DNA of 29,743 bases. It comes from a virus. The notes below the pieces were generated by a model that searched no databases, had not been told where the DNA came from, and worked only from the letters and a program-made list of their open reading frames with translations. A program made the translations under genes and the position numbers. Shown in pieces: positions 1,738 through 27,720 of this stretch. The DNA is taken from the IMG/VR virus record IMGVR_UViG_3300017776_000103, positions 1 through 29,743 of that record. One strand, given 5' to 3'. Position 1 is the stretch's first letter; the number at the start of each line of letters is the position of its first letter.

Positions 1738-2048
1738 CACCTGGAAAACACAGACAGCAAGCAAAGTATCAAGCAATATTACGAATTTCAAAATACTTTG
1801 TAAAGAATAAGACATGGATTACGGAAGAAGATTATAATAAACTTGGAAGATTAAGTACTCCTTGTTTACCCAAAAATTTGTATGATATATTTGGAACATA
1901 TAAAGATATGTTACAGTATTTGGAAGTAGGTCCAATGGCAGATGAAATTAAATTGCTAAAACCTAAACCGGCAGTAAAAAAGCCTAAAGCATCCGCTAAG
2001 CCTAAAATGGTAAAGCCTGCTAAAGCAAAGGAGAGTAAAGATGAATAA
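1734..2048 (+). CDS. Small basic protein of unknown function
   Basis: I do not recognise this 104-residue protein. Residues 1 to about 75 look folded, with mixed charged and aromatic residues. From about 76 it becomes a low-complexity tail of lysine, proline and alanine (KPKPAVKKPKASAKPK and similar), strongly basic. It overlaps the portal stop by four bases (ATGA) and the protease-capsid start by eight bases. It is therefore translated with the head genes and probably acts in head assembly. The basic tail could bind DNA or the acidic portal C-terminus; both are guesses. The AAGGAG at 2028-2033 inside its end is the ribosome site for the next gene. Confidence 0.75.
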   Translation: MTPGKHRQQAKYQAILRISKYFVKNKTWITEEDYNKLGRLSTPCLPKNLYDIFGTYKDMLQYLEVGPMADEIKLLKPKPAVKKPKASAKPKMVKPAKAKESKDE

Positions 2049-4134
2049 GTTATTTAATCTTACATCCACATTTAAGTCTCATGAAGCAGACGATGGATCT
2101 GTAATGATACGAGGAATGGCTAGTACAGCTGACTTTGATCGCGCGGGTGATTCCATTTCAGCAGAAGCCTGGACTAAAGGTGGATTATCAAATTTTGAAA
2201 AAAATCCAATTATCTTGTTTAATCACGATTATGACAAGCCAATTGGTAGAGCTACGGGGTTGAAAGCCGGTCCCGATGGCTTGGAACTGGAATGTAAAAT
2301 TAGTAAGGCTGCGCCTGCTAATGTTGCACAATTAGTTAAAGACGGTGTTCTTGGAGCCTTTTCTGTTGGTTTTCGAGTCAAGGACGCTGATTACTTAAAG
2401 GAAACCGACGGACTAATGATTAAGGACGCTGAGTTGTTTGAGGTATCGGTAGTATCTGTACCATGCAATCAGTCAGCTACTTTTTCGCTCGCGAAGTCTT
2501 TTGACTCAAATAAAGAGTACGAAGAATTCAAAAAAACTTTCACAAATCGTGTAGATCTAGCCGGTCAGTCTCTGGCTAAAGACGAAGTTAATACTTCTAG
2601 CGTAGCTAGTGACACACCGAAAAGCGCGGAGAAATCCGCAGATCAGGAGATCAAGATGGATAATCAAAACATCGACTTGGAAGCTTTTGCAAAGAAAGTA
2701 GCAGAAGACACTGCCGCTAAGATTGCTATGAAGCAAGCCGAGCAAAAAGCAGCTGACGAAGCCACCGCTAAAGCAGCTCAAGAAGCAGAAGAAGCGAAAG
2801 CTTTAGAAGCACAATCAATTAAAACAGTTATCAACTCTGGTGTAGAATCAGGTGTTGAAAAACTTATGGGCGACGTTGAAGCTAAACTAGCTGAAAAAGA
2901 CGCAAACCTACAAGAAATCATGGGCACTTTCCAGAAAGAACTTGACGAGAAGAAAGCAGAAATCGAAGCTATGCAAAATAGCAAGAAGTCTTTCTCTGAT
3001 CGTGGTTCTGATCTAAGTGCGTTCGGTAAGGACTTCCTTGGCGCTCACATTCTTGGTAAAGTAACTGGCAAAGGTTATGACACTGACTATGCTAAGTCTA
3101 TTATGGCTAAAGCAGGTGTTGCTTACACAGCTAATGCTTCAGATACAGGTAAACTAGATACTCTTTCTACTACAGCTTTTGAAGAAGAAATGGTTCTAGA
3201 GCAAAAAATTGCTGGCTTGTTCCGCGAAATTGCTGTAAACTCAGGCGCAACTGTAATTCCTACAGTTACTGATACTAATGCTGCTACTTTCTCAGCTGGT
3301 GGTCTTGAAAGTGGTTATTTGACGAACCGTAATGTTGGTACTGCTAACAGCTATGATATGGCCACTGTTACTGCATATGCTAATCGTCTAATCTCAGGAA
3401 CCTATATTCCTTCTGATACTGATGAGCAAACTTTTGTAACTATTCTACCAATGATTCAATCAGCTCTAGCTCGTGCTCACGCTCGTGCCGTTGACAAAGC
3501 AATCTTGTTTGGTACTGGTTCTTTGGATGCAAGTGCAGCTGCAGGTACTACAACTAACTTTGTTGGTCTAGTAGGTAACTGTGGTGTAGATGGTTCTAAC
3601 GCACTAAATACTTCTAGCACTGATCATGGTGGTTTAGCAGGCGATGGTGCTACCAAAGCACGTAGTGCTGTTAATGCTGTTACTGCTATGACTGCTCGTG
3701 CTGGCATGGGTAAGTACGGTATTAATCCTGCAGATGTTGCGTATGTAATGGGTACTGCAGCTTACTACAGCATGATTGATGATGTAACTTCAGGTTCTGA
3801 CTTCACAAGCATTGATGAAGTAGGTCCAAATGCTACTAAGTTAAGTGGTCAGTTAGGTTCTGTTTACGGCTCACCAGTAATCGTTTCAGATCTTCTTGAC
3901 TCTACAGATGGTGGTGATGTTACAGTAGCTTCAGGTGTAACAAGTGACTTTAAAGAGACTTCTCTTATTGCTGTTAACCGTAACGCATTCGTTATTCCAC
4001 GTCTTGGTGGTGTTAACATCGAATCTGATTACGAAGTTGCAGGCCAGCGTACAGCTGTAGTTGCTAGCCAATCTCTTGGCTTCACTCAGTTGGAAGGTGG
4101 TTCACTAGCAGCTATTCGAGTAGTTACTGCTTAA
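2041..4134 (+). CDS. Prohead protease-scaffold-major capsid fusion
   Basis: One 697-residue frame holds three head functions. Residues about 20-150 match the HK97 prohead protease family (peptidase S78): H62 in LFNHDYDKPIG, S108 in GAFSVGFR and E134 in ELFEVSVVSVPCN are the expected conserved positions, with H62 and S108 the likely catalytic pair. Residues about 206-320 are alanine-, glutamate- and lysine-rich coiled coil, like the HK97 delta (scaffold) domain. Residues about 320-697 match an HK97-fold major capsid protein, ending in the usual beta-rich C-terminus. The start has AAGGAG (2028-2033) seven bases upstream. Self-cleavage is expected to release mature capsid near residues 314-325, but the exact site is not visible. 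An internal start at 2656 probably makes scaffold-capsid alone. A terminator follows. Confidence 0.9.
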   Translation: MNKLFNLTSTFKSHEADDGSVMIRGMASTADFDRAGDSISAEAWTKGGLSNFEKNPIILFNHDYDKPIGRATGLKAGPDGLELECKISKAAPANVAQLVKDGVLGAFSVGFRVKDADYLKETDGLMIKDAELFEVSVVSVPCNQSATFSLAKSFDSNKEYEEFKKTFTNRVDLAGQSLAKDEVNTSSVASDTPKSAEKSADQEIKMDNQNIDLEAFAKKVAEDTAAKIAMKQAEQKAADEATAKAAQEAEEAKALEAQSIKTVINSGVESGVEKLMGDVEAKLAEKDANLQEIMGTFQKELDEKKAEIEAMQNSKKSFSDRGSDLSAFGKDFLGAHILGKVTGKGYDTDYAKSIMAKAGVAYTANASDTGKLDTLSTTAFEEEMVLEQKIAGLFREIAVNSGATVIPTVTDTNAATFSAGGLESGYLTNRNVGTANSYDMATVTAYANRLISGTYIPSDTDEQTFVTILPMIQSALARAHARAVDKAILFGTGSLDASAAAGTTTNFVGLVGNCGVDGSNALNTSSTDHGGLAGDGATKARSAVNAVTAMTARAGMGKYGINPADVAYVMGTAAYYSMIDDVTSGSDFTSIDEVGPNATKLSGQLGSVYGSPVIVSDLLDSTDGGDVTVASGVTSDFKETSLIAVNRNAFVIPRLGGVNIESDYEVAGQRTAVVASQSLGFTQLEGGSLAAIRVVTA
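2645..2658 (+). promoter_or_regulatory. Internal ribosome binding site and in-frame start within the fusion
   Basis: AGGAG at 2645-2649 lies six bases before ATG at 2656-2658. The ATG is in frame with the fusion (codon 206) and falls exactly at the boundary between the linker after the protease and the coiled-coil scaffold. Sequence and spacing are as good as any start in this window. Confidence 0.7.
2656..4134 (+). CDS. Scaffold-major capsid product from internal start
   Basis: Translation from ATG 2656 would give a 492-residue protein beginning MDNQNIDLEAF. It contains the delta-like coiled coil (about 115 residues) followed by the HK97-fold capsid domain, and lacks the protease. This is the size and layout of a stand-alone HK97-type capsid precursor. 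The role is inferred: hundreds of capsid subunits are needed per head but far fewer proteases, and internal initiation resolves that conflict in a fused gene, as lambda C/Nu3 does for protease and scaffold. The evidence is the strong ribosome site and its placement at the domain boundary; no expression data are available. Confidence 0.6.
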   Translation: MDNQNIDLEAFAKKVAEDTAAKIAMKQAEQKAADEATAKAAQEAEEAKALEAQSIKTVINSGVESGVEKLMGDVEAKLAEKDANLQEIMGTFQKELDEKKAEIEAMQNSKKSFSDRGSDLSAFGKDFLGAHILGKVTGKGYDTDYAKSIMAKAGVAYTANASDTGKLDTLSTTAFEEEMVLEQKIAGLFREIAVNSGATVIPTVTDTNAATFSAGGLESGYLTNRNVGTANSYDMATVTAYANRLISGTYIPSDTDEQTFVTILPMIQSALARAHARAVDKAILFGTGSLDASAAAGTTTNFVGLVGNCGVDGSNALNTSSTDHGGLAGDGATKARSAVNAVTAMTARAGMGKYGINPADVAYVMGTAAYYSMIDDVTSGSDFTSIDEVGPNATKLSGQLGSVYGSPVIVSDLLDSTDGGDVTVASGVTSDFKETSLIAVNRNAFVIPRLGGVNIESDYEVAGQRTAVVASQSLGFTQLEGGSLAAIRVVTA

Positions 4135-4153: not shown

Positions 4154-4187
4154 AAACTTCGGGGAGGTTCGCCTCCCCCAAGTTTTT
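4154..4187 (+). terminator. Hairpin terminator after the capsid gene
   Basis: A stem of seven G-C rich pairs (GGGGAGG 4161-4167 with CCTCCCC 4172-4178) closes a TTCG tetraloop at 4168-4171. After one C-C mismatch the stem continues with six more pairs (4154-4159 with 4180-4185), and the 3' arm ends in a T run (4183-4187). This is a strong intrinsic terminator. No promoter is visible before the connector gene at 4207, so downstream genes would depend on read-through. Confidence 0.9.
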
Positions 4188-6708: not shown

Positions 6709-7830
6709 ATGGCAAAATCTTTATTTTTAAGCCGCGAGGTACAAGTCTACGTTGAGTTTGATTCCCAATTTTGGGAAGTTCCAGTACTTGACGGTTTTTC
6801 TTTTTCTCAAGGCACAAACACAACTGAAGTAACGGTTGCAGAAATGTCCGACACTTCTGGTAACAGTCGACGAGGTAGAATTGCATTCAACGATAGCTTA
6901 AATGCTGCAGAGTGGTCTTTTTCAACTTATGCTCGTCCAACCATTATTTCCACAAAACATCGTGCAACTGAAGAAGTTCTTTGGGCTTTGATGGCAGGCG
7001 CAAAAGACTATGATGGTGCAGAAGGAAGTGGTAATATTTTCAACGATGGTGCTTCAAGTGCAGTAACAGTAATTAACTCAGACACTAGCAACATGGATAT
7101 CAATTTTGAAGGTTCAAATAAATTAGAGTTTGGAGCTGCTAATATCTGGTTCCGATTCCCTTCTAATGATGATGGTGGAAGTGATTCTGATGTTTTCTAT
7201 AAGTGTGAAGGAGCTGTTGTAAATGAAGCAACTTTAAACTTTGACCTAGAAGGCATTACTACAATCGAATGGTCAGGTATGGCAAATAAACTAATAGAAT
7301 CATCCGCACCTACTCTAGGAACCCCTCTAGCACATGGTGCTACTAGCACTAGTAACTTTATCCGTAATCGTCTAACTCAGTTAGTACTTAATGCTACAGA
7401 CGGTCAAGGATCTATTGAAGACAATGCTTATAATCTAGTACTTACAGGCGGTAATATCACAATTTCTAACAACATTAATTTCATTACTCCTTCTAGCTTA
7501 GGAGTTGTTAATGTACCTTTAGGACATGTTTCTGGTACTAGAAGTGTTACTGGTTCTTTCACTTGCTACTTAAGTGGGGATACTCGTGGTTCTGCCGACT
7601 TGATGGAAGATTTAATAGCTTCAAGTAACGTTGTTCAGAACGAATTTGCACTTACATTCAATGTTGGCGGTACTACTGCACCTAATCTCTCTTTCTCATG
7701 CCCACAGGCAATGTTAGAGATACCTACTCACAGTGTAGAAGATGTTATTAGTGTAGAGGTTAATTTCCATGCTCTACCTTCTGATATTGCAAATACCGAT
7801 GAGGTTACAATCACTTATACTGGTGCATAG
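6709..7830 (+). CDS. Major tail tube protein (first paralogue)
   Basis: A 373-residue beta-rich protein with two domains, the position and composition of a siphophage major tail protein. It has F30-x-F32-S33-Q34 near the N-terminus and RSVTGSF at residue 278 in the second domain. Both motifs recur at equivalent places in the next gene, so the two are paralogues. AGGAGA at 6697-6702 gives a strong ribosome site six bases before the start. The 62-base space upstream shows only a poor imperfect hairpin and no convincing promoter. The protein would assemble as stacked hexamers around the tape measure; which paralogue forms the tube shaft is not decidable from sequence. Confidence 0.8.
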   Translation: MAKSLFLSREVQVYVEFDSQFWEVPVLDGFSFSQGTNTTEVTVAEMSDTSGNSRRGRIAFNDSLNAAEWSFSTYARPTIISTKHRATEEVLWALMAGAKDYDGAEGSGNIFNDGASSAVTVINSDTSNMDINFEGSNKLEFGAANIWFRFPSNDDGGSDSDVFYKCEGAVVNEATLNFDLEGITTIEWSGMANKLIESSAPTLGTPLAHGATSTSNFIRNRLTQLVLNATDGQGSIEDNAYNLVLTGGNITISNNINFITPSSLGVVNVPLGHVSGTRSVTGSFTCYLSGDTRGSADLMEDLIASSNVVQNEFALTFNVGGTTAPNLSFSCPQAMLEIPTHSVEDVISVEVNFHALPSDIANTDEVTITYTGA

Positions 7831-7847
7831 GTGTAAAAAAATATTTC

Positions 7848-7876
7848 TTGACATTTATGGTCTCTTAGACTATAAT
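7848..7876 (+). promoter_or_regulatory. Consensus sigma70-type promoter between tail tube genes
   Basis: TTGACA at 7848-7853 and TATAAT at 7871-7876 are perfect hexamers separated by 17 bases. An A/T tract (7835-7846) lies directly upstream, like an UP element. The spacer includes a small inverted repeat (GTCT 7860-7863, AGAC 7867-7870). Transcription would begin near 7883, only about 14 bases before the hairpin terminator at 7897. The layout matches the promoter at 136-164 in hexamers, spacing and upstream A/T tract. Confidence 0.85.
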
Positions 7877-7896
7877 ATGGAATAGAAAAAGTTAAT

Positions 7897-7925
7897 AAAG
7901 GGGTCTTTTTCGACCCCTTTGTTTT
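7897..7925 (+). terminator. Hairpin terminator just downstream of a promoter
   Basis: AAAGGGGTC (7897-7905) pairs with GACCCCTTT (7912-7920) in a perfect nine-pair stem around a six-base loop. It is followed by GTTTT (7921-7925). It would end transcripts from the first tail tube gene and also those started at the promoter at 7848-7876. Confidence 0.85.
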
Positions 7926-7938
7926 ATTAGAGAAAAGT

Positions 7939-8943
7939 ATGCCTTATATTTTAAAAAGAACAGCATCTCTTTCGGTATCAATTCCTGCCGGAGAGAGTAG
8001 TTATTATAATATGGACGTAACGGATTTTAAGTATAGTCAAACATATACTGACTCGACATATACTCAAAAAACTTTACATGATCAACATAAGTTAAGCGAA
8101 GTCTCTAATATAACAAAAGCTAATCCGGCAAATTTTGAGTTTACAATAAATTTAGGAACAGAAGAAAATACCGGAGTACAAAAGCTTATCGAGCATTTAC
8201 TAGATCCAGTAGCAAACCAATTTCAGATAGTTGTTGCAGCTGGAGAAAATGAGGACGATTATCAGCATATTATAGCCATGCAAAGTTGTGTTGCAACAAA
8301 TGGGACATTCATAATTGATAAATTAGAGAATCTCAAGTTGACAATTTCAGGGCAAGGTACTGAGCTTCGGACTCTTGTTTCTACAGCGTATCAGCAGAAT
8401 GCTATTACCTTTGGAACCATAACTAGAAACCGTGCAGAAAATCAATTGCCCGCCTACGTCAAGGTACGACTTCCTGATCCTGATGAGGATATACCTTGTG
8501 TCACTTCTTTATCCGTAGAGATTCAAAACGACATTGAATGGAATCCCTATACAACGCTTCACGATTCTATAGGTACAAGTACAGAAGGAGATATATTAAG
8601 CATACAACGCCCTTCAAAATATACCTTGAAAAAGAGAACTATATCAGGATCTATAGAGGCGTATATAAAACCCAATACGGATGCCGGTACACAAATTACT
8701 GACGCAGATATTGGGGAGGCATATATGCAAAACTATGCTACAAATAAAACACTTTTTATAAGGGCAGGAGCATCGCCTTACTTAAATATAAAAATGAACT
8801 TAGTAAACTGTACATATACTAATCGTGTAAATCCGGGAAGTGTATTTACTCAAAGTTATGATTGGAGAATGGCTGATAGTCCTATAGATTTAACAGACTC
8901 TAGCTCAGACTCCCAATCATATATCATACTTCAAACAACATAA
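7939..8943 (+). CDS. Second tail tube-like protein (paralogue)
   Basis: A 334-residue protein aligned by eye with the preceding tail tube gene. F30-x-Y32-S33-Q34 falls at the same residue numbers as F30-x-F32-S33-Q34 there, RTISGSIEAYI at residue 233 matches RSVTGSFTCYL at 278, and the C-terminal parts share a beta pattern ending with a D-rich turn. It is probably a second tube subunit, a distal-end or tube-initiator variant, or a decoration form of the tube protein. It has its own promoter-terminator region upstream, so its level may be set separately. The ribosome site is modest (AGAG near 7930). Gene order before the chaperones is that of a tail tube gene. Confidence 0.65.
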   Translation: MPYILKRTASLSVSIPAGESSYYNMDVTDFKYSQTYTDSTYTQKTLHDQHKLSEVSNITKANPANFEFTINLGTEENTGVQKLIEHLLDPVANQFQIVVAAGENEDDYQHIIAMQSCVATNGTFIIDKLENLKLTISGQGTELRTLVSTAYQQNAITFGTITRNRAENQLPAYVKVRLPDPDEDIPCVTSLSVEIQNDIEWNPYTTLHDSIGTSTEGDILSIQRPSKYTLKKRTISGSIEAYIKPNTDAGTQITDADIGEAYMQNYATNKTLFIRAGASPYLNIKMNLVNCTYTNRVNPGSVFTQSYDWRMADSPIDLTDSSSDSQSYIILQTT

Positions 8944-27688: not shown

Positions 27689-27690
27689 AG

Positions 27691-27720
27691 TAAAGGGGCT
27701 TTCGCCCCTTTATTATTTTT
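27691..27720 (+). terminator. Bidirectional terminator between convergent clusters
   Basis: TAAAGGGGC (27691-27699) pairs with GCCCCTTTA (27704-27712) in nine pairs around a four-base loop. On the plus strand it is followed by TTATTTTT. On the minus strand the loop reads GAAA, a GNRA tetraloop, and the stem lies directly after the TAA of the small minus-strand gene. It ends both transcription units. Confidence 0.9.

Follow-up and report, generated by a model that had tools for sequence, protein, structure and literature searches.

A promoter–hairpin pair behind the tail tube gene of uncultured marine T5-like phages as a putative transcription valve

Why would a phage place a perfect promoter among its late structural genes, and then follow it almost at once with what looks like a terminator? 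The question is raised by a short intergenic stretch of the window, by which we mean the whole 29,743 nucleotides of viral DNA analysed here. A first-pass annotation had offered three possibilities, namely a small RNA gene, an attenuator awaiting an antitermination factor, or an arrangement that insulates the tail tube gene and lets partial read-through supply its neighbour, and had thought such a pair unusual.

The cassette in its setting

The relevant features are as follows.

6709–7830, plus strand: major tail (tube) protein (MTP) gene, T5 pb6-like (PHROG 3575, E 8e-50)
7835–7847, plus strand: UP-like A/T tract AAAAAAATATTTC, upstream of the −35 and near-invariant in 20 aligned relatives
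7848–7876, plus strand: sigma70-type promoter, as read from the sequence (−35 TTGACA 7848–7853, 17-nt spacer 7854–7870, −10 TATAAT 7871–7876)
7857–7873, plus strand: dyad ATGGTC-N5-GACTAT in the promoter spacer and −10
7883–7925, plus strand: short RNA (~43 nt), predicted from these positions if termination occurs
7885–7891, plus strand: leader GAAAAAG, complementary to loop CTTTTTC at 7905–7911
7897–7928, plus strand: terminator-like hairpin and T run, with 9 pairs, a GC-rich core and loop TTTTTC
7939–8943, plus strand: baseplate tail-tube-like protein gene (PHROG 3889, E 2.8e-6)

Direct reading confirmed the perfect TTGACA-17-TATAAT of the first-pass annotation, and likewise its nine-pair hairpin with a T run about 14 bases past the start (14 nt, counted from 7883). 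The stem arms, AAAGGGGTC (7897–7905) and GACCCCTTT (7912–7920), enclose the loop TTTTTC (7906–7911) and are followed by the T-rich tail GTTTTATT, and a 48-nt RNA covering the hairpin folds at −17.7 kcal/mol against −7.1 for shuffled versions (z −4.5). The MTP stop codon lies 17 nt upstream of the −35, the stem begins 14 nt past the predicted start and the next gene follows 18 nt past the stem, which puts the terminator within a short leader. Transcription would start near 7883–7885 and the RNA would end at the hairpin; these two ends, like the efficiency of termination, its leakiness and the effect of the leader, are what we infer from the letters. If at most one mismatch is allowed, TTGACA-17-TATAAT is present in the window only at 136 and 7848, both of them perfect, where 0.46 such sites are expected in a shuffled window and two were reached in 10 of 100 shuffles. 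The promoter at 136–164 stands before the head genes, some 7.7 kb upstream of the cassette, and is kept in relatives with the spacer AAGTTAGCTTAAAnTnGA; longer contigs carry a further conserved promoter about 4.2 kb upstream of it. A/T tracts similar to that before the −35 also precede other promoters of these phages.

By tblastn the MTP is 34% identical to that of the Salmonella T5-like phage GSW6 and 32% identical to T5 pb6, and on the strength of these protein matches the window phage is a distant relative of T5. The downstream protein (7939–8943) found no relatives in a single-sequence search of viral contigs. Elsewhere in the window, a 697-aa ORF (2041–4134) matches both the head maturation protease (PHROG 80) and the major head protein (PHROG 617); T5 encodes these two separately. 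A UUCG-type terminator-like hairpin (4161–4178) lies directly 3′ of the capsid gene, where the T5 annotation has one too, and a strong terminator-like hairpin (27689–27714) separates a 4502-aa ORF from the minus-strand genes converging on it. Five MTP relatives (L153–L157) sit in contigs binned with marine Gammaproteobacteria (Porticoccaceae, Halieaceae) and one betaproteobacterium, hinting at possible hosts.

Conservation, and two orders of the same parts

Is the pair an accident? Pattern searches of IMG/VR found the cassette in many independent contigs of a large uncultured marine T5-like phage group, in every case between the MTP gene and the tail gene that follows it. Among 27 copies of type A, the cassette of roughly 90–100 nt has a mean pairwise identity of 87%, compared with 65% over the final 99 nt of the MTP gene in the same copies, and 20 aligned cassettes share 54 invariant positions even though the MTPs are 40–60% identical to most others. 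A search keyed on leader and hairpin alone returned 20 contigs of the cassette family, every one of which has the promoter (three of them with a single mismatch in the −35 or −10), and thus no family member without it; two other matches were chance hits from outside the family. The first-pass annotation had proposed aligning related phages, and in that alignment promoter and terminator are both conserved. A coding explanation for the conservation was rejected because there are indels between the −10 and the leader, and stops in the frames checked. Searches among cultured phages returned no similar DNA, and the exact cassette pattern was found in none of the bacterial genomes searched. It is the recurrence of promoter, leader and hairpin in the same spacer of many contigs, more than the counts in the window, that excludes chance, and in sister phages the two parts recur in opposite order; for these reasons the pair reads, on sequence comparison, as a conserved transcription valve and not as an accident.

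The opposite order became apparent among 119 distinct MTP-downstream spacers, from loci collected mostly with an MTP profile, plus MAG contigs. The promoter-then-hairpin order of the window (PT) accounts for 66 of the 119, a share somewhat inflated because about two dozen loci were first found by the cassette pattern, while 35 have the terminator before the promoter (TP) and 15 have the hairpin only. A terminator kept where the promoter is lost, which the first-pass annotation had named as evidence against its pairing, is thus confined to a distant subset, these 15 spacers. Is the pair unusual, as that annotation held? It is so when compared with the other promoters of these phages, since a strong hairpin follows within 65 nt of the start in 45 of 116 strong promoters, of which 44 are PT sites, but at this particular site it is the majority state. 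Three loci (L132, L148 and L237) have two MTP-like genes each, with different spacers downstream.

On a maximum-likelihood MTP tree, 11 changes are needed for PT and 7 for TP, and well-supported branches force at least 5–6 changes of order, where shuffled means are 22–28. The order may have changed repeatedly, or small cassettes may recombine, and under both scenarios the arrangements indicate that PT and TP can stand in for each other beside the same genes. One way in which both orders might serve is polymerase recycling, in which polymerases terminated at the hairpin stay on the DNA, slide to the adjoining promoter and re-initiate; this would work in either order because hairpin and promoter lie within about 70 bp, and both PT and TP do keep them adjacent. 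Post-termination sliding, with re-initiation at upstream and downstream promoters, has been shown in vitro (PMC6978380). We regard recycling as a long shot here, since it is known from in vitro work only and leaves the loop, leader and spacer features particular to PT unexplained.

A leaky attenuator and its rivals

What, then, would the valve do? The starting point is that some polymerases very likely cross the hairpin. On the plus strand of the window, between 7877 and 27688, where the tail genes end (20 kb), no promoter has 11 or more of 12 consensus matches, nor is there one after the cassette in three longer PT contigs (G004, 41 kb; G002, 31 kb; G019, 12 kb), and the tape measure and fibre genes beyond are needed for virions. 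Weak downstream promoters (8–10 of 12 matches), or promoters of other types, are a possibility and the main escape from this argument. Our leading reading, to which we give nearly even chances on the sequence evidence, is that an internal late promoter is here joined to a leaky, promoter-proximal, cis-acting attenuator. The hairpin would end most MTP mRNAs arriving from upstream and so cap MTP mRNA, and would also halt many polymerases started at the adjoining promoter, with the ~43-nt RNA as a by-product; those that pass would transcribe the genes for the baseplate, tape-measure and fibre proteins, which are less abundant and whose expression would in this way be metered. An attenuator acting in cis is favoured because the unit interchanges with TP without an evident partner gene. 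Among the three options of the first-pass annotation, insulation of the tail tube gene with partial read-through is accordingly the best supported, given that relatives swap the order of the parts and that there is no other strong promoter downstream.

Since the cassette must be crossed, its hairpin should be built to be passable, and this would show in the lack of a UNCG tetraloop and in a leader that, in most copies, would pair with the loop while the 3′ arm is still to emerge. Indeed, UNCG tetraloops occur in 20 of 23 distinct TP hairpins and in none of 48 PT hairpins (Fisher p 8e-15). Of five independent pairs on the tree, 4.4 have a loop that agrees with the order and 0 have one that goes against it (p about 0.125, the pairs being too few), and if cassettes recombine the association may reflect two old cassette lineages. 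The hairpin-only lineages have the weakest T runs (4.4 against 6.3 T of 8, p 8e-5), which fits passability, as those hairpins must also be crossed. Against the leaky attenuator, most PT copies have a good T run and may therefore terminate strongly.

The leader itself is of particular interest. Most PT leaders are complementary to the hairpin loop, as GAAAAAG/CTTTTTC in one type and GAAAATC/GATTTTC in another, and matched leader–loop pairs beat swapped leaders in 2000 of 2000 permutations (6.5 against 5.8 pairs); shuffled leaders reach 5.2 pairs, so that A-rich and U-rich composition accounts for much of the pairing, and the AG/UC switch in leader and loop may be a single event. In per-sequence shuffles, type A mostly reaches p 0.01–0.05 with the loop C included, and most cassettes other than type A are not significant. 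About ten PT cassettes have no such pairing, and in most PT cassettes the alternative helix is thermodynamically weak, predicted at −4.4 kcal/mol where the hairpin has about −17. Expected pairing also falls as the RNA includes more read-in sequence (4.8, 2.1 and 1.2 pairs), a generic effect of competing sequence that we do not accept as proof. We think it unlikely, but worth stating, that the hairpin discriminates between polymerases by origin, stopping those that read in from the MTP gene and passing those started at the adjoining promoter, either through a leader–loop helix that is then uncontested or by means of antiterminators of a new family that load at the spacer dyad. The PT cassette would in that case be an insulator and promoter in one piece, equivalent to the TP order of sister phages.

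The dyad in the promoter spacer and −10 brings in further alternatives. It is present in most PT promoters and mostly missing from TP and other promoters; the promoter region folds at a mean of −6.3 in PT (z −1.85), −1.4 in TP and −3.1 in other promoters (z −0.2), and about ten PT cassettes are without the spacer motif. In PT the promoter is itself transcribed as mRNA, and the dyad could thus be a stabilising hairpin in the MTP mRNA 3′ UTR, or a repressor operator, and as such the main cause of the conservation; this we consider the least probable of the alternatives, since the leader would be left unexplained and covariation in the dyad (two pairs with double changes against 1.4 in shuffles) is not above controls. 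Covariation at this level does not establish the dyad as an RNA helix, and that reading was set aside.

The main rival to the leaky attenuator, to which we give a real if minor chance, is processive antitermination of the Q/AlpA type, in which a phage or host protein would bind the spacer element of a paused polymerase, carry it past the hairpin and so set the time at which the later tail genes come on. The layout equals that of PR′/tR′ in phage 21 (PMC6606751) and of PalpB/tB (PMC9371919), each of which has a binding element between −35 and −10 and then an intrinsic terminator, and a spacer motif kept in PT and missing from most TP promoters fits well, because loading would matter only where the promoter precedes the hairpin. 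The PT cassettes that lack the motif count against it, as does the need for a dedicated trans factor, which makes repeated swaps of a ~100-bp cassette harder. Furthermore, PF06530 and PF03589 match none of 15 contigs, all fragments (PF06323 gave no match either, nor did its control), and pause hexamers resembling a −10 show no enrichment in the initial transcribed region, with 15 of 41 PT cassettes compared to a shuffled expectation of 14.2; the best hexamer in the window reaches 3/6. The attenuator awaiting an antitermination factor may still apply: its anatomy matches, but no Q-family gene turned up in those fragments and the pause motif is not enriched.

Could the short RNA be the point of the cassette? 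A small regulatory RNA of ~43 nt acting in trans would account for a conserved strong promoter, leader and terminator, and the predicted product is a discrete RNA with a 3′ U tail. We find this quite unlikely. There is no common seed, because the cassette types differ in leader and hairpin and some have a leader of only about 4 nt; the longest leader target in the window is 11 nt, lies inside the terminator at 27689 and was reached by 27 of 200 shuffles; Rfam gave no match above gathering score; and interchange with TP would remain unexplained. What survives of the small RNA gene proposed at first pass is therefore the expected RNA, with a role in trans less favoured.

Known systems and what the group offers

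The closest parallel is the lambdoid PR′/tR′ region with Q (phage 21, lambda, 82), which likewise has a strong sigma70 promoter with an intrinsic terminator a short way past it and late structural genes further on, and a conserved element between −35 and −10, known here from sequence alone. The cassette differs in its position within the structural operon, behind the tail tube gene, in an element that is inverted and not a direct repeat, in showing no enriched −10-like pause and no Q homologue in the 15 contig fragments, and in having its order swapped in sister phages. AlpA and PalpB-tB of Pseudomonas aeruginosa also have a spacer element and, as predicted for the cassette, a weak terminator downstream, whereas the cassette has a different sequence and a dyad instead of one 6-bp site. 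Intrinsic leader attenuators of the trp/his type also combine a short leader, a terminator hairpin and a competing helix upstream, but the cassette has no leader peptide and no known ligand, and its putative competing helix would pair with the loop, not with a stem arm.

T5 itself has a homologous gene order, a promoter near pb6 (P-J5) and a terminator behind its capsid gene, but in T5 and in Vibrio T5-likes the pb6 junction is at most 15 bases and holds no cassette. We found little in the literature on T5 late transcription that concerns the junction after the MTP gene. A TTGACA-17-TATAC/AT promoter is conserved inside the tail terminator gene, upstream of pb6, in T5 (P-J5) and Vibrio T5-likes (L037 3787, L034 2795, L035 2721, L036 2722), and distant relatives (L005 7283, L008 3009) have TTGACT-17-TATAAT ahead of the tape measure gene and, after this promoter, a hairpin that lacks a T run.

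What makes this phage group so attractive is that it amounts to a natural experiment, in which the same genes are accompanied by PT, TP or the hairpin only, with at least 5 changes on the gene tree. Two questions thereby become testable: how phages set protein ratios within a single late operon, and whether polymerases that have just started and those reading in can fare differently at an intrinsic terminator. The group could also point to an antitermination factor in a widespread group of uncultured phages.
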